From positions 1 through 21,610 of the IMG/VR virus record IMGVR_UViG_3300045996_001312: a DNA stretch of 21,610 nucleotides. One strand, 5' to 3'. The notes below the pieces were generated by a model. That model was not told the origin of the DNA, searched no databases, and saw only the letters and a list, made by a program, of their open reading frames with translations. Positions 2,285 to 20,338 of the stretch are shown here, piece after piece (within the stretch, counting starts at the first letter, position 1; each line of letters begins with the position of its first letter). The translations under genes and the position numbers were made by a program. Source of the stretch: a virus.

Positions 2285-2307
2285 CTTCTGTAAAATAGTA
2301 ATAGAGG
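2285..2307 (+). promoter_or_regulatory. Promoter-like AT core inside a short inverted repeat (boundary element 1)
   Basis: CTTCT (2285-2289) and AGAGG (2303-2307) can pair, with one G-U. They enclose GTAAAATAG, whose TAAAAT (2291-2296) resembles a minus-10 box directly after a TG. No minus-35 box is evident. It sits just after the terminase stop and before the membrane protein/portal block. Four similar elements occur at other block boundaries, which is the main reason to call it. Confidence 0.4.
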
Positions 2308-2310
2308 GGC

Positions 2311-4722: not shown

Positions 4723-5087
4723 TGACGACTTCCCCAACTTCCCGAGAAATGGAGGCCATCGCGGACCTCCTTAACCACCCCGGCTATCCGCTCCTCCTAG
4801 AGCACGTCCAGCGCGACATAGACGACATCTCCGACCAAATCGAATCCTCCGGCTCCCACGAAACCGACCGCGACTTACTCGGCCAATGGAAGGCCATGCG
4901 TAAGGTCCTTCGCACGCTCAAAGAAACGCCCATAATCATGATCTCCGCAGCGGAGGACCAGCGCAAAATCGAAGAGGGCACCTTCGAAAGCCTCGGTATG
5001 TCGGACTACTCCACAATGAACTACCGCCAAGGGCTGATAAGCGAGTTTCCAACGTCTGGTAACATAGAACTAGAAGAGGACATTTAG
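4722..5087 (+). CDS. Small head-region protein of unknown function
   Basis: 121 residues, with the ATG overlapping the portal stop (TAATG). I do not recognise a named family. The sequence is acidic and mostly helical by eye, with HPGYPLLLEHVQRDIDDI near 18-35 and a basic patch WKAMRKVLRTLKE at about 51-63. The C-terminus (STMNYRQGLISEF onward) is less structured and ends acidic. Small helical proteins of this size often sit between portal and scaffold in podovirus-like head modules. Its tight coupling to the portal suggests a role in procapsid assembly, which is inference only. The stop codon TAG at 5085-5087 forms the first three bases of the leader motif of the next gene. Confidence 0.7.
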   Translation: MTTSPTSREMEAIADLLNHPGYPLLLEHVQRDIDDISDQIESSGSHETDRDLLGQWKAMRKVLRTLKETPIIMISAAEDQRKIEEGTFESLGMSDYSTMNYRQGLISEFPTSGNIELEEDI

Positions 5088-5097
5088 GACTAAGATT
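5085..5097 (+). promoter_or_regulatory. TAGGACTAAGANT start leader, copy before the scaffold gene
   Basis: TAGGACTAAGATT runs directly into the ATG at 5098. AGGA (5086-5089) is a weak Shine-Dalgarno at workable spacing, but the following CTAAGATT is also conserved at other starts. The same 13 bases occur exactly at 7620-7632, with one-base differences at 11600-11612 and 14481-14493. Here the TAG is also the stop of the upstream gene. Confidence 0.6.
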
Positions 5098-5958
5098 ATG
5101 TCTCAGAACCCGCAGAATAACGAAGTCGATTCCGATGACCTGCTCCGTGGCTGGATTAAAGAGGAAGTGGAAAAGCAGACAGCCCCGGACCCGGCAGTTA
5201 CCGCGCCCGTCACGCAGCCTACCCCGCAGCCCCTTGAACTGAACGTCATGGGGAGTAAGTACACCTTCAATTCCCAGGCGGAAATGGAAGCGGCTTTGAA
5301 TAACACCTTCACCGCCCTCCAGCAGCAGCAGACCGCCCCGCCCCCGGAACCCGCAGGCCGCTACGTCACCGATGACCAAGGCCCTAAGTGGGACCAGGAT
5401 AAGTACATCGAGTTGATGAAGACGGACCCCCGCGAGGCCGCCGAACTCGTAGACAACTTCCGTTACTTCGGCGGAAAGCACACGGGCAAAGTCTCCCAGA
5501 CCATCAAACAGCGCTTGGAAGAGGCGGAAGTCCTGAAACAACACTTCAGCGAAATGCAATTCCTGGCCGCCCATACAGAATTCCCGCGCGGCCCCCAGAG
5601 CGCCCAAATCGTCCACGGTATTCGCCAAGCACTAAACCTCCCCTACACCCCGGACGGCCTTGACGCGGCTTACTTAGTCGCCCAGCAGCGCGGTTATCTC
5701 CCGGCAGTCCAGGCTTCTCCCAGCACCCCCCAGAACGCCTACGCCCCTTCTGGCTACCCCCAGAACGCGCCACCGCAACCCCAGCCCTTCAATAACCCCA
5801 ATAGCCTCTATCAGATGCCGCAGACCAACTACGGTCCCCCGGCCATCGGACGTGGAGCCTCCACCCCACCCGAACAGAGTTTCGACATGGACGCCCTGGA
5901 ATCCCTCCCCCTCGCCAGCATCAAGAGCCTAATCGAGAAAAGCCATAACTCCAGGTAA
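5098..5958 (+). CDS. Capsid scaffolding protein
   Basis: 286 residues, ATG at 5098 behind the TAGGACTAAGATT leader. It lies between the portal and major capsid genes, the standard place for the scaffold that directs procapsid assembly and then leaves. Composition fits: acidic, rich in Gln and Pro, few aromatics, no obvious enzymatic motif. The N-terminus (about 9-30) is charged and helical. A segment near 45-75 (LELNVMGSKYTFNSQAEME) resembles the start of other phage scaffold-like proteins that carry a short folded unit. About 95-160 is helical and charged, about 200-260 is Pro/Asn/Tyr-rich and probably disordered, and the last 25 residues (ALESLPLASIKSLIEK) could form the capsid-binding helix. 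No protease domain is seen in it. Confidence 0.8.
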   Translation: MSQNPQNNEVDSDDLLRGWIKEEVEKQTAPDPAVTAPVTQPTPQPLELNVMGSKYTFNSQAEMEAALNNTFTALQQQQTAPPPEPAGRYVTDDQGPKWDQDKYIELMKTDPREAAELVDNFRYFGGKHTGKVSQTIKQRLEEAEVLKQHFSEMQFLAAHTEFPRGPQSAQIVHGIRQALNLPYTPDGLDAAYLVAQQRGYLPAVQASPSTPQNAYAPSGYPQNAPPQPQPFNNPNSLYQMPQTNYGPPAIGRGASTPPEQSFDMDALESLPLASIKSLIEKSHNSR

Positions 5959-5969
5959 GTCACTTACCT
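5953..5969 (+). terminator. Short hairpin at the scaffold stop codon, weak terminator or RNA end
   Basis: AGGTAAG (5953-5959), TCA, CTTACCT (5963-5969) form a perfect 7-bp stem with a 3-base loop spanning the scaffold TAA. It is followed by TCTGTTATTAT, which is only moderately U-rich, so termination would be weak. It abuts boundary element 2 just before the capsid gene, and could separate scaffold and capsid transcription. Confidence 0.4.
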
Positions 5970-5994
5970 TCTGTTATTATAGAGACAGGGAAGG
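5967..5994 (+). promoter_or_regulatory. Promoter-like AT core inside an inverted repeat (boundary element 2, before capsid gene)
   Basis: CCTTCTGT (5967-5974) can pair with ACAGGGAAGG (5985-5994) if two G residues bulge. Between them lies TATTATAGAG, with TATTAT at 5975-5980 as a minus-10-like box. No minus-35 box is clear. The 91-base gap from 5958 to the capsid ATG at 6049 is the largest around the head genes, which suits a dedicated capsid promoter with a short leader RNA. Confidence 0.45.
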
Positions 5995-6033
5995 CAGTTA
6001 GAACGGCCCTCCGACTTATCTAAGATTAGGATC

Positions 6034-6048
6034 TAGGTAACTAAGAAT
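6034..6048 (+). promoter_or_regulatory. TAGGACTAAGANT start leader, variant with a two-base insertion, before capsid gene
   Basis: TAGGTAACTAAGAAT directly precedes the ATG at 6049. It equals TAGGACTAAGAAT with TA inserted after TAGG. An extra, related CTAAGATTAGGA lies just upstream at 6020-6031, so the capsid leader seems to hold a partly duplicated copy. Confidence 0.45.
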
Positions 6049-7038
6049 ATGGCATACTCACCGGCAGGAAATTCTACTTCTTCCCCCGGCTTAGCGCACC
6101 TCCAAGCTATCTTTTACAACAAGACCGGCTTGGACGTTTTGCAGAAGAACTTCGTTTTCCGGAGCGCGACAGAAAAGGACAAACTGCCGTTGCGGTCTGG
6201 CCGAACTGCTCAATGGTTCCGGTATAACAATCTCTCTGCTGGCACGACCCCCGCAACCGAAGGCTCAGTTGGCACCTCCCTCCAGACGACCTCCAATGTC
6301 GTCGGAGCCACGGTTTCCCAGTACGCAAACTTCATCTCCGTTTCCGACTTCCTCATGGATACGGCGATTGACCCGATTGTTGAAAGCAACTCGGAGCGCC
6401 TGGGATATCGCGCCGGCCTTTCCGTGGATACGATTACCCGAAATGTAATCGACGCGGAATCCGGAGCGGCCCAGACCGCCCTCGCCACCTACCTCGGTGT
6501 TGACGACCTCCGCGCCGCCCGGACCAACCTGGCAGCCAACGATGTCATGCCGTTCGACGATGGGGAGTACTTCGCCGTCGCCCATCCTTTCGCCACGTTC
6601 GACCTCGTGAACGACCCTGCGGCTGGTGGACTGGCGGACATCTTCAAGTACACGACTCCGAAAGCGACCGCTCTTGTGTCTTACCCCACGCGGGGAACCA
6701 CGATGGCGTCCGTTGCCGGCTGCCGTGTGGTTGAGTCCACGAACACCTATCAAGGAACCGGCCCGAACACCTACCGTGTATATGTTTTCGGTAAGGGCGG
6801 AGTTGGTTCGTTGGATCTGGAAGGACGCGGCCCCTCGAACGTCACCGACCCGAACAAGCAGAAGTTCAAGATTTCTGTGATTCGGAATCAGGGCGGGAAT
6901 ATCGCCGATCCGGAAGGCATGATTGGCGCGGCTGTTGCGTATAACTTCAGCTTCGCTTCTGTGGTTCTCCAGGGTCCGGCAAGCATTCCTGGGCCGTATC
7001 GGTATCGTTACATCGACGTGCAGTCCACGCTTGGTTAA
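6049..7038 (+). CDS. Major capsid protein, N4-gp56 family
   Basis: 329 residues. It forms the HK97-fold icosahedral shell. Recognition comes from the family-typical N-terminal half: LQAIFYNKTGLDVLQKN at 18-34, LPLRSGRTAQWFRYNNL at 46-62, TPATEG at 67-72, and QYANFISVSD at 91-100 followed by a helix with ERLGYRAGLSVD. These correspond to the N-arm, E-loop/P-domain entry and spine-helix pattern of N4-gp56-like capsid proteins. The later part holds HPFATFDLVND, GCRVVEST and a C-terminal VAYNFSFASVVLQG strand. There is no N-terminal delta domain, which agrees with a separate scaffold gene. It follows a promoter-like element and its own leader, as expected for the most abundant virion protein. Confidence 0.92.
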   Translation: MAYSPAGNSTSSPGLAHLQAIFYNKTGLDVLQKNFVFRSATEKDKLPLRSGRTAQWFRYNNLSAGTTPATEGSVGTSLQTTSNVVGATVSQYANFISVSDFLMDTAIDPIVESNSERLGYRAGLSVDTITRNVIDAESGAAQTALATYLGVDDLRAARTNLAANDVMPFDDGEYFAVAHPFATFDLVNDPAAGGLADIFKYTTPKATALVSYPTRGTTMASVAGCRVVESTNTYQGTGPNTYRVYVFGKGGVGSLDLEGRGPSNVTDPNKQKFKISVIRNQGGNIADPEGMIGAAVAYNFSFASVVLQGPASIPGPYRYRYIDVQSTLG

Positions 7039-7055
7039 TCAGGAGGATACAAAAC

Positions 7056-7544
7056 ATGGCTGATAGAATCTCTCTCACTAATGACGCGGTAGATCCTTCT
7101 GGCTTTTCCTACGTTGAAGAAGTCTTCACGTGGAACGTCGCCTCCGAAACCTCCGTCATGGCGGCTTCGGCAACGCTCCTCCCCATCGCGGCTATGAAGG
7201 CCAATGGGCGGATCGTGAATGCGTTCATCGGACTCGTTACCCCGCCCGTCTCGGCCTCGGGTTTCGTTTCTGGCACAGTGGACGCTACCTTCCGTATTAA
7301 CTCGGCGGAGGTGCTCTCCACTCTCCCGTCGATCCCGATGGCTGGCTCGGCTGGCGCGGCGACTCGTAAATCCACGAACGCTGGCGGCGGGGTTAGCGCG
7401 GTAGTGAACACGGCTTCGGCCAGTTTCTCTGCCGGCGACCAGATCTCCTTCGATTACAACGCGCGCTCGGTTGGATCGGCGGCTGCTGGTGCGACGTCCA
7501 AGGGTCTGTACGCGACGGTTGTTGTTCGTTACGCGGCTCGGTAG
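7056..7544 (+). CDS. Probable head decoration or capsid-associated protein
   Basis: 162 residues, ATG at 7056 with a strong AGGAGG eleven bases upstream (within AATCAGGAGGATAC). It follows the capsid gene by 17 bases. The sequence is small-residue rich (Ala, Ser, Thr, Gly, Val), lacks Cys and looks all-beta: SVMAASATLLPIAAM, VSASGFVSGTVDATFRI, GDQISFDYNARS and a final LYATVVVRYAAR strand. Many phages encode a small beta-rich decoration protein immediately after the capsid gene, and this is the basis of the call. The strong ribosome site suggests high expression matched to the capsid protein. It could instead be a head fibre base or another minor structural protein. The family itself was not recognised. 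Confidence 0.6.
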   Translation: MADRISLTNDAVDPSGFSYVEEVFTWNVASETSVMAASATLLPIAAMKANGRIVNAFIGLVTPPVSASGFVSGTVDATFRINSAEVLSTLPSIPMAGSAGAATRKSTNAGGGVSAVVNTASASFSAGDQISFDYNARSVGSAAAGATSKGLYATVVVRYAAR

Positions 7545-7573
7545 TTTTTCTTAGTCCGGGTAGTTGCGGTTTA

Positions 7574-7620
7574 GAAAATGGGTGGTATCCTTTAATCGGG
7601 ATATCGCCCATTTTCGTTTT
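7574..7620 (+). terminator. Rho-independent terminator after the head genes
   Basis: Arms 7574-7590 and 7599-7615 form a 17-bp stem (two G-U pairs, otherwise complementary) around the 8-base loop TTTAATCG. ATTTTC closes the stem and GTTTT follows at 7616-7620. The stem core GGGTGG/CGCCC is GC-richer than its ends. This is the clearest terminator in the window and separates capsid/decoration transcripts from the glycosyltransferase genes. Confidence 0.75.
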
Positions 7621-7632
7621 AGGACTAAGATT
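7620..7632 (+). promoter_or_regulatory. TAGGACTAAGANT start leader, copy before the glycosyltransferase
   Basis: The 13 bases TAGGACTAAGATT are identical to those at 5085-5097, but the codon that should be ATG (7633-7635) is AAG. The next in-frame codon, at 7636, is TTG, a possible start. The leader begins at the last T of the terminator tail. Confidence 0.5.
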
Positions 7633-7635
7633 AAG

Positions 7636-8760
7636 TTGCCTTTAAAGCCCGTCGCAATCCATTCATCCGCAACCCTTGAGCCGTGGGATTTTACAACACC
7701 TTGGACGCAGGGAATAGGTGGCAGTGAAAATTCGGCCGTAGAGATGGCCGAACGTCTCCGTATCTCCGGAGTAAAACTCGAATCCTACGCTCCAATAGAT
7801 TTGACAAAGCATGATCCCGATGCGCCGCTGTATTCCTCAAATTTAACTCCTTGGTTTCACCACACCGCGTATCGCCCTATTCCGGATGAGATTCTTATCA
7901 ATTATCGCAACCCCACTACGTTTGACACAGATAAACCAAACGGTGCGAAGTGGTGGTTTGTCGCGCAAGATGTCGATTACCCATGGGCTCCGGAGCAGTT
8001 AGAAAAAGTAGACCGTTACCTTTGTCTCTGCAAAGCCCACGCCGCGTACACCCTCCAGCGCTACCCCCAACTAAAAGGCCGCGTATTCATTAGCTCCAAC
8101 GGCGTGCGGTCAGAGGTGATTGCGGAGGTGGAGAAGGAAGGGCTAGTTCGCCAACCTTTCCGTATGTTCTACCCCTCTTCCCCCGACCGTGGACTAATGC
8201 TGGTTCTACAGAATTGGTTTCGGATTAAAGAGGCCGTCCCCCAAGCAGAACTGTACATCGGCTACGGGCTTAACAACGTAGACAAGATTATTCAGTTGAA
8301 TGGAAAAGGCGACTGGCGGTACACATTCAAGCAGGAGTTCGAGGATTTAGTACACCAAGACGGTATCTATTGGCTGGGCCGCCTCAATCAAATGGAGGTT
8401 TACAGGCAGTGGTTCCAAGCCTCCATCCATCCGTACCCAAATAGCTTTAAGGAAACGAACTGCATAACCGTCATGGAATCGCAGAGTTGCGGGGCGTTTC
8501 CTGTAACTAACAGCTTGTGGGCGGTGGGAGAATACGTCCAGTTTGGAACTAAGTTGACGGGAGTACCGCAGGAAACTACGTTGGGCTCGGCGCTTTGGGT
8601 GGGTGAGTGTATTCGTAGTCTACAGGAGGAAGTATTGGAGCCGACTAAGAGAAGTGGGGAGAGGGCTCATATGATGTCATGGGCTCGGAGTTCGTTTGAT
8701 TGGCAGAATGTGGTTTCCCAGTGGACTAACTGGATCAAGGAGGACTCATGCGAGAAATAA
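7636..8760 (+). CDS. Glycosyltransferase, GT4-like (GT-B fold)
   Basis: 374 residues from TTG 7636; ATT at 7630 is an alternative start. The frame is open further upstream (to TTG 7564), but that would run through the terminator hairpin. An N-terminal Rossmann half carries the GGSE loop at 28-31 (QGIGGSENSAVEMAERL), typical of retaining GT4-type enzymes. The C-terminal half has YPSSPDRGL at 179-187, AELYIGYG at 204-211 and the E-x7-E donor-site motif (Glu273 and Glu281 in FKETNCITVMES). The enzyme should move a sugar from a nucleotide-activated donor; the acceptor is unknown. Hand counts of three 60-base lines here give 45-50% GC, against 62-67% in lines from the portal and adaptor genes, which suggests later acquisition. 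The next gene overlaps its end. Confidence 0.85.
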   Translation: MPLKPVAIHSSATLEPWDFTTPWTQGIGGSENSAVEMAERLRISGVKLESYAPIDLTKHDPDAPLYSSNLTPWFHHTAYRPIPDEILINYRNPTTFDTDKPNGAKWWFVAQDVDYPWAPEQLEKVDRYLCLCKAHAAYTLQRYPQLKGRVFISSNGVRSEVIAEVEKEGLVRQPFRMFYPSSPDRGLMLVLQNWFRIKEAVPQAELYIGYGLNNVDKIIQLNGKGDWRYTFKQEFEDLVHQDGIYWLGRLNQMEVYRQWFQASIHPYPNSFKETNCITVMESQSCGAFPVTNSLWAVGEYVQFGTKLTGVPQETTLGSALWVGECIRSLQEEVLEPTKRSGERAHMMSWARSSFDWQNVVSQWTNWIKEDSCEK

Positions 8761-9440
8761 AACCAGCCGGAACGCTTTCCCGAATGTGGCAGGATGTGAT
8801 GTACTCCTCCTTCGCCGATTCCCTCGTTGAAACAGCGCTCTACACTACCTACTACCTACAGAACGTCGAGGATTTGTCTGGAGGAAAGAGCTACATCCAC
8901 TACGACAAGGCCACCGTCAGCTTCCACGAAATGGCGAGGAATTCCCTAGCCGAACGGATGCAGGGCGACTGGATATTCATGATGGACTGCGACCACCAGA
9001 CCGCACCAGATATCCTTGTCCGCCTCCTCCGATTACGGAAGAAGTACGGTTGTCGTGTCATCAGCGGTATCTACTTGTACAAACACCCACCACATTCCCC
9101 GGTGGCGAACTTCTTTAACGAGGAAGGCCGCGTTGTACCACTCGTAGATTGGGACCGGAGCGCCGAAATCATGGAGATTGGCTGCACCGGGGCAGGCTGT
9201 CTACTAATCGATAAAAGCGTTATTCGCGAGATATCCGAGAAATACGGCTGCGGTCCGTTTACACAGTTCCCCGGACTAAGCGAGGATTACAGCTTCTTCA
9301 AGCGGTGTAAGGAATTGGGTATTACCTGCCATCTCGCGCCGCAAGTCGAAGCGCACCACGTAATACGAACTCCTTTGTATGTAGACGGGTACCGCCCAGT
9401 CCGCGACGGACTAATCCAAACAACCGTAAAGGGCGGCTAA
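8748..9440 (+). CDS. Glycosyltransferase, GT2-like (GT-A fold)
   Basis: 230 residues, ATG at 8748 overlapping the previous gene by 13 bases. A canonical AAGGAGG at 8737-8743, inside that gene, serves as ribosome site. The DxD metal/nucleotide-sugar motif is Asp80-Cys-Asp82 in DWIFMMDCDH. Next come LVRLLRLRKKYGCRVISGIY (about 90-109), a CTGAGCLLID strand (146-155), and GLSEDYSFFKRCKELG at 176-191, where Glu179-Asp180 are the usual acceptor-site acids of GT2 enzymes. APQVEAHHV follows at 197-205, matching the C-terminal His region of many GT-A proteins. It lacks membrane segments, so it is likely a soluble enzyme. Translational coupling to the GT4-like gene suggests two sequential sugar additions. 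Possible targets are virion proteins or a host surface glycan. Confidence 0.82.
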   Translation: MREIKPAGTLSRMWQDVMYSSFADSLVETALYTTYYLQNVEDLSGGKSYIHYDKATVSFHEMARNSLAERMQGDWIFMMDCDHQTAPDILVRLLRLRKKYGCRVISGIYLYKHPPHSPVANFFNEEGRVVPLVDWDRSAEIMEIGCTGAGCLLIDKSVIREISEKYGCGPFTQFPGLSEDYSFFKRCKELGITCHLAPQVEAHHVIRTPLYVDGYRPVRDGLIQTTVKGG

Positions 9441-9455
9441 AACCTAAGTTTCCAA

Positions 9456-9482
9456 CCTCTAACTGTATAATATAGTTAGAGG
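9456..9482 (+). promoter_or_regulatory. Perfect 9-bp inverted repeat around TATAAT (boundary element 3)
   Basis: CCTCTAACT (9456-9464), GTATAATAT, AGTTAGAGG (9474-9482). The 9-base centre contains TATAAT at 9466-9471, directly after TG. The right arm overlaps AGAGGG (9478-9483), the ribosome site for the TTG at 9490. It could be a promoter with an operator-like palindrome, or an RNA hairpin that hides the ribosome site. There is no T-run, so it is not a classic terminator. Confidence 0.6.
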
Positions 9483-9489
9483 GAACAGT

Positions 9490-10671
9490 TTGTCGTCGCT
9501 GCATATTGGGAAACCATCGAACGCTAGTCAGATAACCTGGAGCGACGGCACGCCTTTTTCCGGGTATCTGGTCGTAGGTCTAGTAAACAGTTCCTACGAT
9601 GGAACTTGCTCCACCTCCTGGGGAAAAGCCACAGTCGGGCCGAATCGTAACTACACGCTCCCGCCGGGATTCGCGATGATCCCTATCGACCAAGGGAGAT
9701 TCAACGACTCCATCGGCGTCTACTACAACACCGACATAACCCCTCCTAATACCACCTACATCGCCTACTACTACGACGCGAACCGCAACCCCATTGCCGG
9801 CCCATCCTCCCCCTTCTCCGTAACCTCCGATACGTTTACACCGCCGGCGCTTACTCTCCTAACCCCAGCGGACAGTGCGGCGGCCCCAGTACCGGACAAC
9901 GAAGCCGGCACAGACCAATTCTTCGGTGTAGTCACCCCGTGGGCATGGAATGAAGTACCCGCCGGAACAAAAGACGGTGTAAACACAGCGTTCACCTTGG
10001 CGGAAACTCCCGCCCCAGCCGCGTCCCTGCACGTCCTCTTCAACGGCTCCGACCTTACACAAGGCGTGGACTACACTCTCTCCGGCACCGCTCTAACAAT
10101 GGTGTCGCCGTACATCCCGACCTCCACCGACACATTCTGGACGTTCTATGCGTATGGAACCTCCGTCCCCGCTTTCTCCGAAACCTTAATGAAGTGGAAC
10201 GAAACTCCAGCCGGCCTGATGAACGGCTCCAACCAAGTATTCGTTCTCTCCGAAAATCCTTACCCCACCTCATCCCTAATCCTCATCTTCAACGGCTCCA
10301 CGTTGCGGCAGGGCGTTGACTACGTTCTGCTCGACAACATCATCAATCTCCTCACCTTCATTCCTGCCTCGGGCGATACCTTAGTCGCCTCCTTCCTCTA
10401 CAGCCGTTGCTTTACCCGCCGTGGTGGAGTCGCTACTTGGGCGTTTGACGAAATCCCGAGCGGCACCAAAAACTCCTCCAACACGGTATTTACGTTAGCC
10501 AACACGCCGGACCCGCCGGCTTCCCTCATGCTGCGGTTTAACGGGTCCACGCTAACCCAAGGGGTACACTACAACCTCTACGGCGCAATCATCGTCTTTA
10601 ACGCGCCCTTTATCCCCGCGCCGTCGGACAACATCACGGCGGATTACCAGTACTTCGTTTACACGCCATGA
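9490..10671 (+). CDS. Repeat-containing virion protein, probable fibre or baseplate-like component
   Basis: 393 residues from TTG 9490, six bases after AGAGGG. Residues 1-135 form a beta-rich domain (ITWSDGTPFSGYLVVGLV; PNTTYIAYYYDANRNPI), like the fibronectin-like or substituent-binding modules at the start of phage tail or head fibre proteins. From about 151 to 391 there are three copies of an 83-residue repeat. Each reads roughly E-x-P-x-G, then N-x-x-F-x-L, P-x-x-S-L, FNGS, QGVDY, and a closing strand pair. Such E-P-G/NG-N/DY repeats are common in phage structural proteins that display surface-exposed beta modules. The stop overlaps the next start (ATGA). A tail fibre, head fibre or adhesin are all possible; the exact position in the virion is not shown by the sequence. 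Confidence 0.65.
   Translation: MSSLHIGKPSNASQITWSDGTPFSGYLVVGLVNSSYDGTCSTSWGKATVGPNRNYTLPPGFAMIPIDQGRFNDSIGVYYNTDITPPNTTYIAYYYDANRNPIAGPSSPFSVTSDTFTPPALTLLTPADSAAAPVPDNEAGTDQFFGVVTPWAWNEVPAGTKDGVNTAFTLAETPAPAASLHVLFNGSDLTQGVDYTLSGTALTMVSPYIPTSTDTFWTFYAYGTSVPAFSETLMKWNETPAGLMNGSNQVFVLSENPYPTSSLILIFNGSTLRQGVDYVLLDNIINLLTFIPASGDTLVASFLYSRCFTRRGGVATWAFDEIPSGTKNSSNTVFTLANTPDPPASLMLRFNGSTLTQGVHYNLYGAIIVFNAPFIPAPSDNITADYQYFVYTP
9940..10662 (+). repeat. Three tandem 83-codon repeats within the fibre-like gene
   Basis: Landmark residues recur at exact 83-residue steps: Glu155/238/321, Pro157/240/323, Gly159/242/325, Asn165/248/331, Asn185/268/351 (FNG) and Tyr195/278/361 (GVDY or GVHY). The DNA period is 249 bases with no length change between units, although the sequences have diverged. 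Confidence 0.9.
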
Positions 10672-11591: not shown

Positions 11592-11612
11592 ACTAAGACT
11601 AGGACTAAGAAT
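11592..11612 (+). promoter_or_regulatory. TAGGACTAAGANT start leader with a partial upstream duplicate
   Basis: TAGGACTAAGAAT (11600-11612) abuts the ATG at 11613. A second ACTAAGA lies 12 bases earlier (11592-11598 against 11604-11610). The 31 bases between the genes consist almost entirely of this repeat. Confidence 0.55.
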
Positions 11613-12008
11613 ATGGCTAAGGATACGAAAGATTTGAACGTTTTACAGTCTCCGATGGCGGATACCTCCACCGAAGACCTCGACCGGGAACTAAAACTCC
11701 TCGAACTTGAGGAGAAGCGGGAAGCGCGCGGAAAGAAGCTCGCGAAAGAAGCCCAGCGTAAAGCCGCCGGCGTCTCGATTCGGGCGAATTACGTTAGGGA
11801 ACAGGACAGAACGAAAGCGGAACAGGCTGTCTGTATCCACCAGAAACCCAACGGCGCGTCTGCCTTTTGCGGCCAGCGCGACCACTCGGGAAGAATCCAC
11901 CTCATCTGCCAGACATGCTCGATGGAATGGCACGAGGGCATCTCCCCCAACTTCGCTTTCCGCCGCCCCGATCCCAATATCATCGGCGGCCCGCTGCAAT
12001 CCGTCTAA
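11613..12008 (+). CDS. Small protein with coiled coil and Cys/His-rich (zinc-ribbon-like) domain
   Basis: 131 residues, ATG at 11613 behind TAGGACTAAGAAT. Residues about 20-50 (EDLDRELKLLELEEKREARG onward) are highly charged and helical. Residues 74-107 hold Cys74, His76, Cys86, His91, His96, Cys99, Cys102 and His107; the pair C-Q-T-C at 99-102 plus Cys74 or Cys86 and a nearby His could bind one zinc ion. The surrounding CGQRDHSGRIHLICQTC and MEWHEG resemble a small treble-clef or ribbon fold, but no named family was recognised. It precedes the adaptor-like pair. A structural or assembly role in the virion is inferred from context; DNA binding is another possibility. Confidence 0.7.
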   Translation: MAKDTKDLNVLQSPMADTSTEDLDRELKLLELEEKREARGKKLAKEAQRKAAGVSIRANYVREQDRTKAEQAVCIHQKPNGASAFCGQRDHSGRIHLICQTCSMEWHEGISPNFAFRRPDPNIIGGPLQSV

Positions 12009-14473: not shown

Positions 14474-14493
14474 TAGGACTTAGGACTAAGACT
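14474..14493 (+). promoter_or_regulatory. TAGGACTAAGANT start leader with a duplicated TAGGACT heptamer
   Basis: TAGGACT at 14474-14480 is followed at once by TAGGACTAAGACT (14481-14493), which abuts the ATG at 14494. The 24-base gap between the two low-complexity genes is almost wholly made of this element. Confidence 0.55.
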
Positions 14494-15198
14494 ATGGCTC
14501 CAGCACGTACTTTCGGCGCTCCCTCAGGCAACGCGACATATGGACGCGGAGGCGGGGCTTTCCAGAACCCCGGCGACCCGTCACAAGGCGGTCCTAACTA
14601 CGTAGACGCACGCACTCCCGGTATGGGTGGCATGGGTGGGTATGGTCAAGCGGGCATGTCTTTTGCGGGCGGCGGAGGAGGTCTTATGCCTCCTTCTGGC
14701 GGCGGGGGAATGATCCAGGGCGGCGCGCCTTCCTTCCAGAACTTGGGAGCCGGCGGAATGGGCGGCACGGAACAGGGCGGTATGTCCAACGTCCAGTCCC
14801 TTCTCTCACGTACACCTTGGGGGATCTCCCCGTGGACCGGGAACACCCAAATGACCGGGCGCGATAACTCCTCCTTCCGTGAAGGCGGCAGTTCGGACGG
14901 CAGCGGGCAAGGAATGTGGGGCGCGGGGTTTAACTTCCTCAAGAACCACCCCCTGGCGGCAATGCTGTTCGGCGGCGGCCCTATGGGTATGGGGCAGTTA
15001 CAGGCAATGGGCGTTCCGATGGCCGGTCCCCGTCAACCTTCGCCGCAAATGGGCGCGGGTGGAGTTGGCCGTCAAAGCATTCCCATGCAGTCTTTGGAAG
15101 GCGGGCAGGGCGGCGGTGGCGGAGATGCCCTAAGTATGCTCCTCCAAGGCATGGGCCAAATGCCGGGTAACTTCTACGGGCGGACACGTGGAAGGTAA
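14494..15198 (+). CDS. Gly/Met-rich low-complexity virion-block protein
   Basis: 234 residues, ATG at 14494 behind the duplicated leader. About a third is Gly, with many Met, Gln and Ser: GMGGMGGYGQAGMSFAGGGG near 43-62 and GGGGMIQGGAP soon after. A middle section, SNVQSLLSRTPWGISPW (about 98-114), and NFLKNHPLAAMLFGGGPMGM (about 147-166) look more ordered; the latter could be a short membrane-active or amphipathic helix. The end is MLLQGMGQMPGNFYGRTRGR. I do not recognise a family. It resembles its neighbour in composition and may be a diverged relative or a partner. It is placed just before the nozzle-like gene, so it is probably a tail or ejected virion protein. Confidence 0.68.
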   Translation: MAPARTFGAPSGNATYGRGGGAFQNPGDPSQGGPNYVDARTPGMGGMGGYGQAGMSFAGGGGGLMPPSGGGGMIQGGAPSFQNLGAGGMGGTEQGGMSNVQSLLSRTPWGISPWTGNTQMTGRDNSSFREGGSSDGSGQGMWGAGFNFLKNHPLAAMLFGGGPMGMGQLQAMGVPMAGPRQPSPQMGAGGVGRQSIPMQSLEGGQGGGGGDALSMLLQGMGQMPGNFYGRTRGR

Positions 15199-18799: not shown

Positions 18800-18822
18800 A
18801 CTCATAAATAGTAAAATAGAGT
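18800..18822 (+). promoter_or_regulatory. Promoter-like AT core (boundary element 5) before the ejection-protein block
   Basis: ACTC (18800-18803) and GAGT (18819-18822) enclose ATAAATAGTAAAATA; TAAAAT is at 18812-18817. GTAAAATAG is identical to the core of element 1. A TTGACT at 18797 is only nine bases upstream of TAAAAT, so it is not a proper minus-35 for it. GGAAGG at 18824-18829 is the ribosome site for the ATG at 18836. Confidence 0.45.
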
Positions 18823-18835
18823 AGGAAGGCTATAA

Positions 18836-20338
18836 ATGGGGTTCTTCGACGACAACGGTTGGGTTAGAAACGGACTGGCGACGCAGGTTGCCCACGCGGA
18901 TAATGACTACTTCAATAATCAGGCGCGGTATGACCAGTTAGTAAACGACATACGCGGGATGTCCGTTGACCCGGCTCAATGGATGCAGCAGAACGTCGGC
19001 TACCCGCAGATGTCGCAGTTGGGGGAACGTTTATCCCAGTTTGACCCTACGTCGATCATGGCGCAGTCCGGGCAGTTCATGACCCCCGGAATGCAGCAGT
19101 CGTTAGAGCAGATGTTGTCGGGCGGGATGGCGGGGTATAACCAGGGCCAGGGGATGAACCAGAACCTGGGGAACCTCGGGCAGCAGACCCAGGCCCCGCT
19201 CTGGCAGACGGCGAACCAGGGCTTCCAGGGCGGCGGGTGGACTCCTCAGTACCAGCAGGCTTTCGACTCTCTGGGCGGAATGATGAACCCTGCGACGAAC
19301 CCCACGTTGGCAACTCAAATGGGCGCGGGGCAAGGACTCCTCCAGTCCGGAGGCCAGGACCCGTTTACACAGGCGATGCAGCAGTTCGCTCAACAGGGCG
19401 TGGCAGGTGGCGGGCAGACTCCGCAAAGCCAGACTCTAGGGAACGTCGGCGCGCAGATTCTCGGGAATAACCCTCTAATGTCCGGCGGGCAGGCTGCGTC
19501 GATGGCCGCGAACCAAGCCGGCACAGACACCCGTAACGCCGCCGAAGCGATGATGCAGAAGGCCGTCTCCCGTGGCGCGGCTCCCGGTTCCGTAGTCGCA
19601 TCCGGCATGGGGAACGAAGTAATGGCCGACTTCGCGGACCAGATGTCGCAGAACCAGTCGAAGGCGATCATGGATGCGCTGTTCGGCCAGCAGCAGCTTG
19701 GTTTGCAGCAGTGGAATCAGGCGGCGGGGATGCTCGGGGAGTCTGGGCAGTTACAGAACCAGAATTTGAACACCTACGGACAGATGGGCCTCGGTGCCGG
19801 CGCACAGGCTAACGAACGCATGGGCCTCGGGGCGCAGTTGCTGGGTAACACCAACCAACTCCAACTCGGCGGCGTAAACGCAATGGGCAACATCATGGGT
19901 AACCAGAACCAATACGCACTGGGGCTGGGGAACTTGGCGTCTCAGACGGGCATGAATCAGGTCGGCGCGCAGAATCAGCAGTTCGATAACAACCTGAATA
20001 ACTCGGCGTTCTTGCAAGGGCTGTACAACCAGGGATTCCAGAATGACTTAGCGTCGGGGCAACTCGGCGTGCAGCGTGGGAATTCTCTGATTCAGGGAAT
20101 GTTGGGGGGCCAGCAGAACCAGCAGGGCTTCATCAACGGTATGAACAACATGTACAACAACCAGGTGACTAACCCCATGCAGCAGTTCTTGCAATTCCCG
20201 CAGAACGCAGCGTTGACGGCTTTGGGCGCGCGGGTTGGGGGAGTTCCGGTTGGGCAGGGTGGAGCGAATCAGGGACTACTCGGGAAGATTGGTCAAGTCG
20301 GCGGAATGGTCGGAGGATTAGCGGGGATGTTCATCTAA
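18836..20338 (+). CDS. Gln/Asn/Gly-rich protein, candidate DNA-ejection (internal virion) protein
   Basis: 500 residues, ATG at 18836 six bases after GGAAGG. The first 60 residues look ordered (GFFDDNGWVRNGLATQVAHADNDYF; ARYDQLVNDIRGM). The remainder is dominated by Gln, Asn, Gly, Met and Ala, with irregular repeats of the form LG-N, QNQ and GQ. A more regular helical part occurs near 230-290 (NAAEAMMQKAVSRGAAPG; MADFADQMSQNQSKAIMDAL). The C-terminus is Gly-rich and hydrophobic (GLLGKIGQVGGMVGGLAGMFI), which could insert in membranes. Podovirus ejection proteins are often Gln/Ala-rich, poorly conserved and located after the tail genes, so the role is inferred from place and composition. The stop overlaps the next ATG by one base. 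Confidence 0.7.
   Translation: MGFFDDNGWVRNGLATQVAHADNDYFNNQARYDQLVNDIRGMSVDPAQWMQQNVGYPQMSQLGERLSQFDPTSIMAQSGQFMTPGMQQSLEQMLSGGMAGYNQGQGMNQNLGNLGQQTQAPLWQTANQGFQGGGWTPQYQQAFDSLGGMMNPATNPTLATQMGAGQGLLQSGGQDPFTQAMQQFAQQGVAGGGQTPQSQTLGNVGAQILGNNPLMSGGQAASMAANQAGTDTRNAAEAMMQKAVSRGAAPGSVVASGMGNEVMADFADQMSQNQSKAIMDALFGQQQLGLQQWNQAAGMLGESGQLQNQNLNTYGQMGLGAGAQANERMGLGAQLLGNTNQLQLGGVNAMGNIMGNQNQYALGLGNLASQTGMNQVGAQNQQFDNNLNNSAFLQGLYNQGFQNDLASGQLGVQRGNSLIQGMLGGQQNQQGFINGMNNMYNNQVTNPMQQFLQFPQNAALTALGARVGGVPVGQGGANQGLLGKIGQVGGMVGGLAGMFI

Follow-up and report, generated by a model that had tools for sequence, protein, structure and literature searches.

Promoters within ribosome-site hairpins: a probable case in an uncultured phage

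In bacteriophage T4, the late promoters of the genes e (lysozyme), soc, and 49 each sit inside an RNA structure by which the ribosome site is masked on read-through messages; messages from the internal late promoter lack the 5′ arm of the structure, with an effect of about 100-fold in the case of lysozyme (PMC3014915). For the hairpins of T4 I-TevI, I-TevII, and I-TevIII and of Aeh1 mobE, the read-through message is folded and silent, and the internal promoter gives an unfolded message (PMC2988022). In Deinococcus-Thermus, a −10 box adjoining open reading frames leads to leaderless messages (PMC12340547).

A probable promoter combined with a predicted ribosome-site hairpin was found upstream of a fibre-like gene in an uncultured phage, IMG/VR virus record IMGVR_UViG_3300045996_001312, of which positions 1–21,610 (21,610 bases; hereafter the window) were analyzed. 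In the mechanism proposed here, transcription of a unit headed by the fibre-like tail gene would begin at a phage promoter whose upstream half is complementary to the first part of its own message. We infer that messages from this promoter begin near position 9478 with AGAGGG, lack the left arm of the hairpin, leave the ribosome site free, and are translated from the TTG at 9490, and that read-through messages from the capsid and glycosyltransferase genes are made, retain the two arms, which pair in a 12-bp hairpin, and yield only low amounts of fibre protein. Taken as a whole, this switch of promoter and hairpin is plausible, and we lean slightly toward it.

The locus

The plus strand of the window encodes a large terminase, a portal (SU10-type), a protein in the scaffold position, the capsid protein, two glycosyltransferase-like proteins, and then the fibre-like protein (9490–10671; 393 amino acids). 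The glycosyltransferase-like gene just upstream (8748–9440, plus strand) has its stop codon 16 nt before the hairpin; read-through messages would therefore carry the whole hairpin, and for the same reason a terminating ribosome should not melt the stem. The TTG start is supported by alignment with an ATG-started homologue in a related locus, L021, in which G7, K8, and W17 fall in register. The protein comprises a conserved N-terminal domain of about 135 amino acids and C-terminal repeats, and its AlphaFold model has a mean pLDDT of 87.8, with the N-terminal domain modeled well (pLDDT 88). Phage tail proteins recur among the top PDB matches (including the P22 tailspike head-binding domain and the P22 and Sf6 tail proteins); since all structure matches are weak, with E above 0.3, the name “fibre-like” is reasonable but unproven. 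The C-terminal part (window positions 9900–10671) contains three similar repeats, around N-E-x-P-x-G and F-N-G-S-x-L-x-Q-G-V-x-Y, which are wholly absent from the relatives L015, L021, and L023.

Elsewhere in the window, three gene starts share a 16-nt context, TAGGACTAAGANTATG, at 5085–5100, 11600–11615, and 14481–14496, and positions 7620–7635 match it with one mismatch. With up to three mismatches allowed, five copies were found in the window versus 0.19 expected, pointing to a translation-start or leader motif that this phage uses repeatedly.

The element itself is a perfect 9-bp inverted repeat on the plus strand. Its left (5′) arm, CCTCTAACT (9456–9464), is complementary to the ribosome site and lies upstream of the expected transcription start; its loop, GTATAATAT (9465–9473), contains the −10 box TATAAT (9466–9471), which has no conserved −35 element; and its right (3′) arm, AGTTAGAGG (9474–9482), is overlapped by AGAGGG (9478–9483), the Shine-Dalgarno site of the TTG start (9490–9492), which follows 6 nt later. 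The seventh base after the −10 box is position 9478, within AGAGGG, so that AGAGGG, by its spacing, probably also forms the first bases of the short transcript. This anatomy had been described in an earlier, sequence-only reading of the window and was confirmed in every part. The palindrome is the only one of its length in the window. Perfect arms of at least 9 bp with a loop of 3–12 nt are, however, expected about 0.8 times per dinucleotide-shuffled window, and the palindrome by itself is thus not significant; what counts is the coincidence and placement of its parts. A search of Rfam gave no match near the element. The hairpin was also considered as an intrinsic terminator, a reading that was rejected, given that a T-run is absent after the stem on either strand.

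Relatives of the window

Searches of IMG/VR with the fibre, glycosyltransferase, and terminase proteins and with the exact palindrome found no close relatives. With the capsid protein as query, about 50 contigs were recovered whose capsids are 28–66% identical. A profile of the fibre N-terminal domain detected homologous genes at 25 distinct loci, the window among them, to which L068 was added. A search of prokaryote genomes with the capsid profile found none, and so provided neither prophage relatives nor a clue to the host.

The gap between the capsid and fibre genes varies in content. In L019 (6953–12412) it holds 32 tRNA genes; a tRNA-Met gene is found there in L012, L015, L017, and L045, together with a tRNA-Asn gene in L017; and glycosyltransferase genes occupy it in the window and L021. 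To judge by these gene contents, the gap looks like a cargo hot spot.

A conserved −10 box and probable promoter

A generic scan of the window for the sigma-70 consensus was uninformative (9 sites found versus 9.4 expected), and a positional comparison with the relatives was consequently needed. Among the 18 fibre genes tested first, 10 have TAYAAT within 30 nt upstream of the start, as compared with a chance of 0.4–3.5% per site; when only independent genes are counted, the box is present in 8 of 21, for a binomial probability of about 4 × 10−9 at p = 0.02. The −10 hexamer is thus conserved in position before the fibre gene across relatives. In several relatives the same box precedes the capsid gene by 28–58 nt, in most cases by 41–50 nt. 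In an alignment of 20 fibre and capsid promoters, the one strongly conserved position beyond the box is a G located two bases upstream (17 of 20), which corresponds to the G of the extended −10 element; no −35-like sequence was seen. At the fibre promoter of the window the G directly adjoins the hexamer, one base closer than in the TGn of an extended −10 element; owing to this difference in register, the promoter is classed as an ordinary −10 promoter in a family with extended −10 members. By sequence, the promoter appears to be of the host sigma-70 type, with a −10 box, often the extended −10 G, and no −35.

The spacers between box and start fall into two classes: 16–22 nt with a purine-rich ribosome site (the window, L033, L019, and L012), and 6–9 nt, too short to accommodate a Shine-Dalgarno site (L023, L036, L030, L041, L034, and L027). 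In the latter six loci TACAAT precedes the ATG of the fibre gene, and the short spacing implies that this virion gene would be expressed from leaderless messages.

The promoter layout also recurs within the window. At 2291–2309 (plus strand), TAAAAT-N6-AGAGGGG, without a palindrome, precedes a small open reading frame starting at 2324 and repeats exactly the TATAAT-N6-AGAGGG of 9466–9483, giving the common form TAWAAT-N6-AGAGGG. Because the AGAGGG of the copy at 2291 lies too far from the ATG at 2324 to provide a good ribosome site, transcripts from this type of promoter probably begin with AGAGGG, which at 9478 would double as the ribosome site. The recurring layout, together with the conserved position of the −10 box in relatives, bears out the suggestion of the sequence-only reading that TATAAT might be a promoter; on this comparative evidence, the box at 9466–9471 is very probably a real one.

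Other promoter-like sites were noted. A second conserved TAYAAT box, 41–50 nt upstream of the capsid gene and usually with the extended −10 G, occurs in L023, L036, L030, L034, L027, L015, and L004. By analogy with it, TATTAT preceded by TGT (5975–5980, plus strand) is a candidate promoter for the major capsid gene of the window; in the stretch 5953–5980 it directly follows a terminator-like hairpin, AGGTAAGTCACTTACCT. A non-coding gap ahead of the gene at 18836 contains a −10-like TAAAAT (18812–18817), 18 nt from the ATG. With respect to phage-encoded sigma factors, nine relatives were searched for a sigma region 2 domain, and none had a match. The L034 genome has a 185-amino-acid open frame with a match to sigma-70 region 4 (G005:C1:25696-25842; E = 5 × 10−15), and no region 4 match above the cut-off was found in eleven other relatives.

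Predicted folding and access to the ribosome site

In the predicted RNA, a G-U pair and two A-U pairs extend the repeat to a stem of 12 bp with a 3-nt UAA loop and a stability of −15.8 kcal/mol (z = −3.8; none of 200 shuffles was as stable). With both arms present, folding predictions give the Shine-Dalgarno bases an unpaired probability of 0.001–0.003, and opening the ribosome site in the long RNA would cost 14–18 kcal/mol (17.6 in one estimate). For an RNA starting after the box, the predicted cost falls to 2–4 kcal/mol (3.6 in one estimate), and with transcript starts at 9460 or later the predicted unpaired probability is 0.84–0.97. The predicted switch point accordingly lies at 9456–9460: transcripts that begin at 9456 or earlier would have a hidden site, and those that begin at about 9460 or later a free one. 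The predicted start at 9478 is well downstream of this point, and the short message would thus be safely on the open side. These folding energies agree with the sequence-only proposal that the site is hidden when both arms are transcribed and free when the left arm is absent.

The occlusion is unusual for the window: the site is the least accessible ribosome site among its 20 gene starts and falls within the top 0.9% of all positions. With shuffling confined to the bases that precede the expected transcription start, equally strong occlusion arose in 0.2–0.7% of trials. No terminator-like site was found on the plus strand from 5969 to 9456, and, with the genes on the same strand, long read-through messages are therefore expected.

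Possible recurrence of the hairpin and alternative explanations

The hairpin was then compared in 11 relatives with a TANAAT box, one per close clade. Occlusion by upstream sequence comparable to that in the window was predicted in L019, with CCAACCUC/GAGGUAGG around TATAAT (P = 0.02), and in L017, where the start codon is paired to bases between the box and the start (P = 0.015). In L021 an 8-bp repeat surrounds TAGAAT (P = 0.04 with the nearer box), an ambiguous case since a start from the second box would include the whole hairpin. In L033, CUCUACC pairs on inspection with the GGUGGAG ribosome site, in a fold that is not exceptional (P = 0.17). A comparable hairpin is absent in L034, L027, L026, L068, and L012, all of which have the promoter, and the start sites in L034 and L027 are fully open. 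The combined Fisher P in the relatives without the window is about 0.03, a weak signal; twelve fibre genes lacking the box showed no occlusion (combined P = 0.95). The arms have no sequence in common among the window and its relatives. Conservation of the pairing, proposed earlier as a check, was thus found in part: about three hairpins are comparable (L019, L017, and perhaps L021), with different sequences, but several relatives have the promoter and no hairpin. It follows from the latter that the family does not need the hairpin, which is not a family trait; the data are only suggestive of independent recurrence. In L036, L030, and L041, the hairpin is short or broken, and an intrinsic-terminator-like hairpin with a T-rich tail lies directly upstream instead, apparently as another way of keeping read-through out of the fibre gene.

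A broader generalization is that, in this group of uncultured podophage-like viruses, promoters at the start of the tail block repeatedly acquire an upstream arm, unrelated in sequence from case to case, that folds back onto the beginning of the message from the same promoter. Translation of the fibre-like gene would then depend on its own promoter alone and be shielded from read-through coming from the variable cargo region (glycosyltransferases and tRNAs) in front of it. We regard this as speculative and rather doubtful.

The same comparison bears on whether the promoter alone matters, the palindrome having arisen by chance from an AT-rich −10 region next to the AGAGGG start, with fibre protein made from all messages or nearly all messages starting here. 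The promoter is conserved in position and the hairpin is not, 9-bp repeats are expected at nearly one per window, and the open start sites in L034 and L027 fit this account, as do L036, L030, and L041, in which the upstream terminator-like hairpin should block read-through and no switch would be needed. However, for its position the ribosome site in the window is occluded to an extreme degree, and the cause is the left arm, which lies outside the conserved promoter; moreover, no terminator precedes the window promoter, so that long messages probably arise, and any that do would fold. An effect of the promoter alone is accordingly a real possibility, albeit one that we do not expect to hold.

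The perfect dyad symmetry centered on the −10 box would also suit a DNA operator, at which a repressor or activator covering the box times the fibre promoter. Such a role, raised in the sequence-only reading, found no support: the half-sites and the whole dyad recur no more often than by chance, whether at the other promoter-like sites or elsewhere, relatives do not conserve the arms, and the inner stem pairs include G-U, as do the helices of L033 and L017, which suits RNA rather than DNA symmetry. An operator is thus improbable. As for an RNA processing or stability element (such as an RNase III site) that frees or protects the fibre message within read-through messages, a strong 12-bp stem between two same-strand genes would be in keeping with it, but 12 bp is on the short side for RNase III, the promoter is conserved in relatives and the hairpin is not, and nothing specific points to processing; we consider this highly improbable.

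Comparison with known systems

The six short-spacer relatives, with TACAAT 6–9 nt before the ATG and no room for a Shine-Dalgarno site, resemble the leaderless arrangement of Deinococcus-Thermus. The window differs from it in having an 18-nt spacer with a Shine-Dalgarno site. The promoter and hairpin switch favored here has counterparts in T4-type phages. With the hairpins of T4 I-TevI, I-TevII, and I-TevIII and of Aeh1 mobE, the window shares, by prediction, a folded, silent read-through message and an unfolded message from the internal promoter; the genes silenced there are homing endonucleases, unlike the tail-fibre-like gene of the window. With T4 e, soc, and 49, it has in common a −10 box within the hairpin sequence and, again by prediction, a short message without the 5′ arm, a long message that hides the Shine-Dalgarno site, and a late virion or lysis gene within a longer transcription unit. 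The differences are that the T4 late promoters (TATAAATA) need the phage sigma factor gp55, whereas the box in the window is of the host sigma-70 type; that the phage group and the gene are unrelated; and that the T4 messages differ in timing, the long being early and the short late, whereas the two genes of the window are probably both late. In addition, the effect for T4 e was measured, whereas the case for the window rests on sequence and predicted folding.

By this analogy, the element is probably a member of the T4 e/soc/49/I-TevI kind of switch, and not of a new kind. If so, the merging of a promoter with a ribosome-site hairpin would be a general, convergent solution, and a rule for annotation is suggested, by which a hairpin that encloses a −10 box at a start codon would identify the gene as one whose translation depends on its own promoter alone. 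A device known mainly from T4-type phages and a phage sigma factor would then extend to an unrelated phage group with a host-type promoter.
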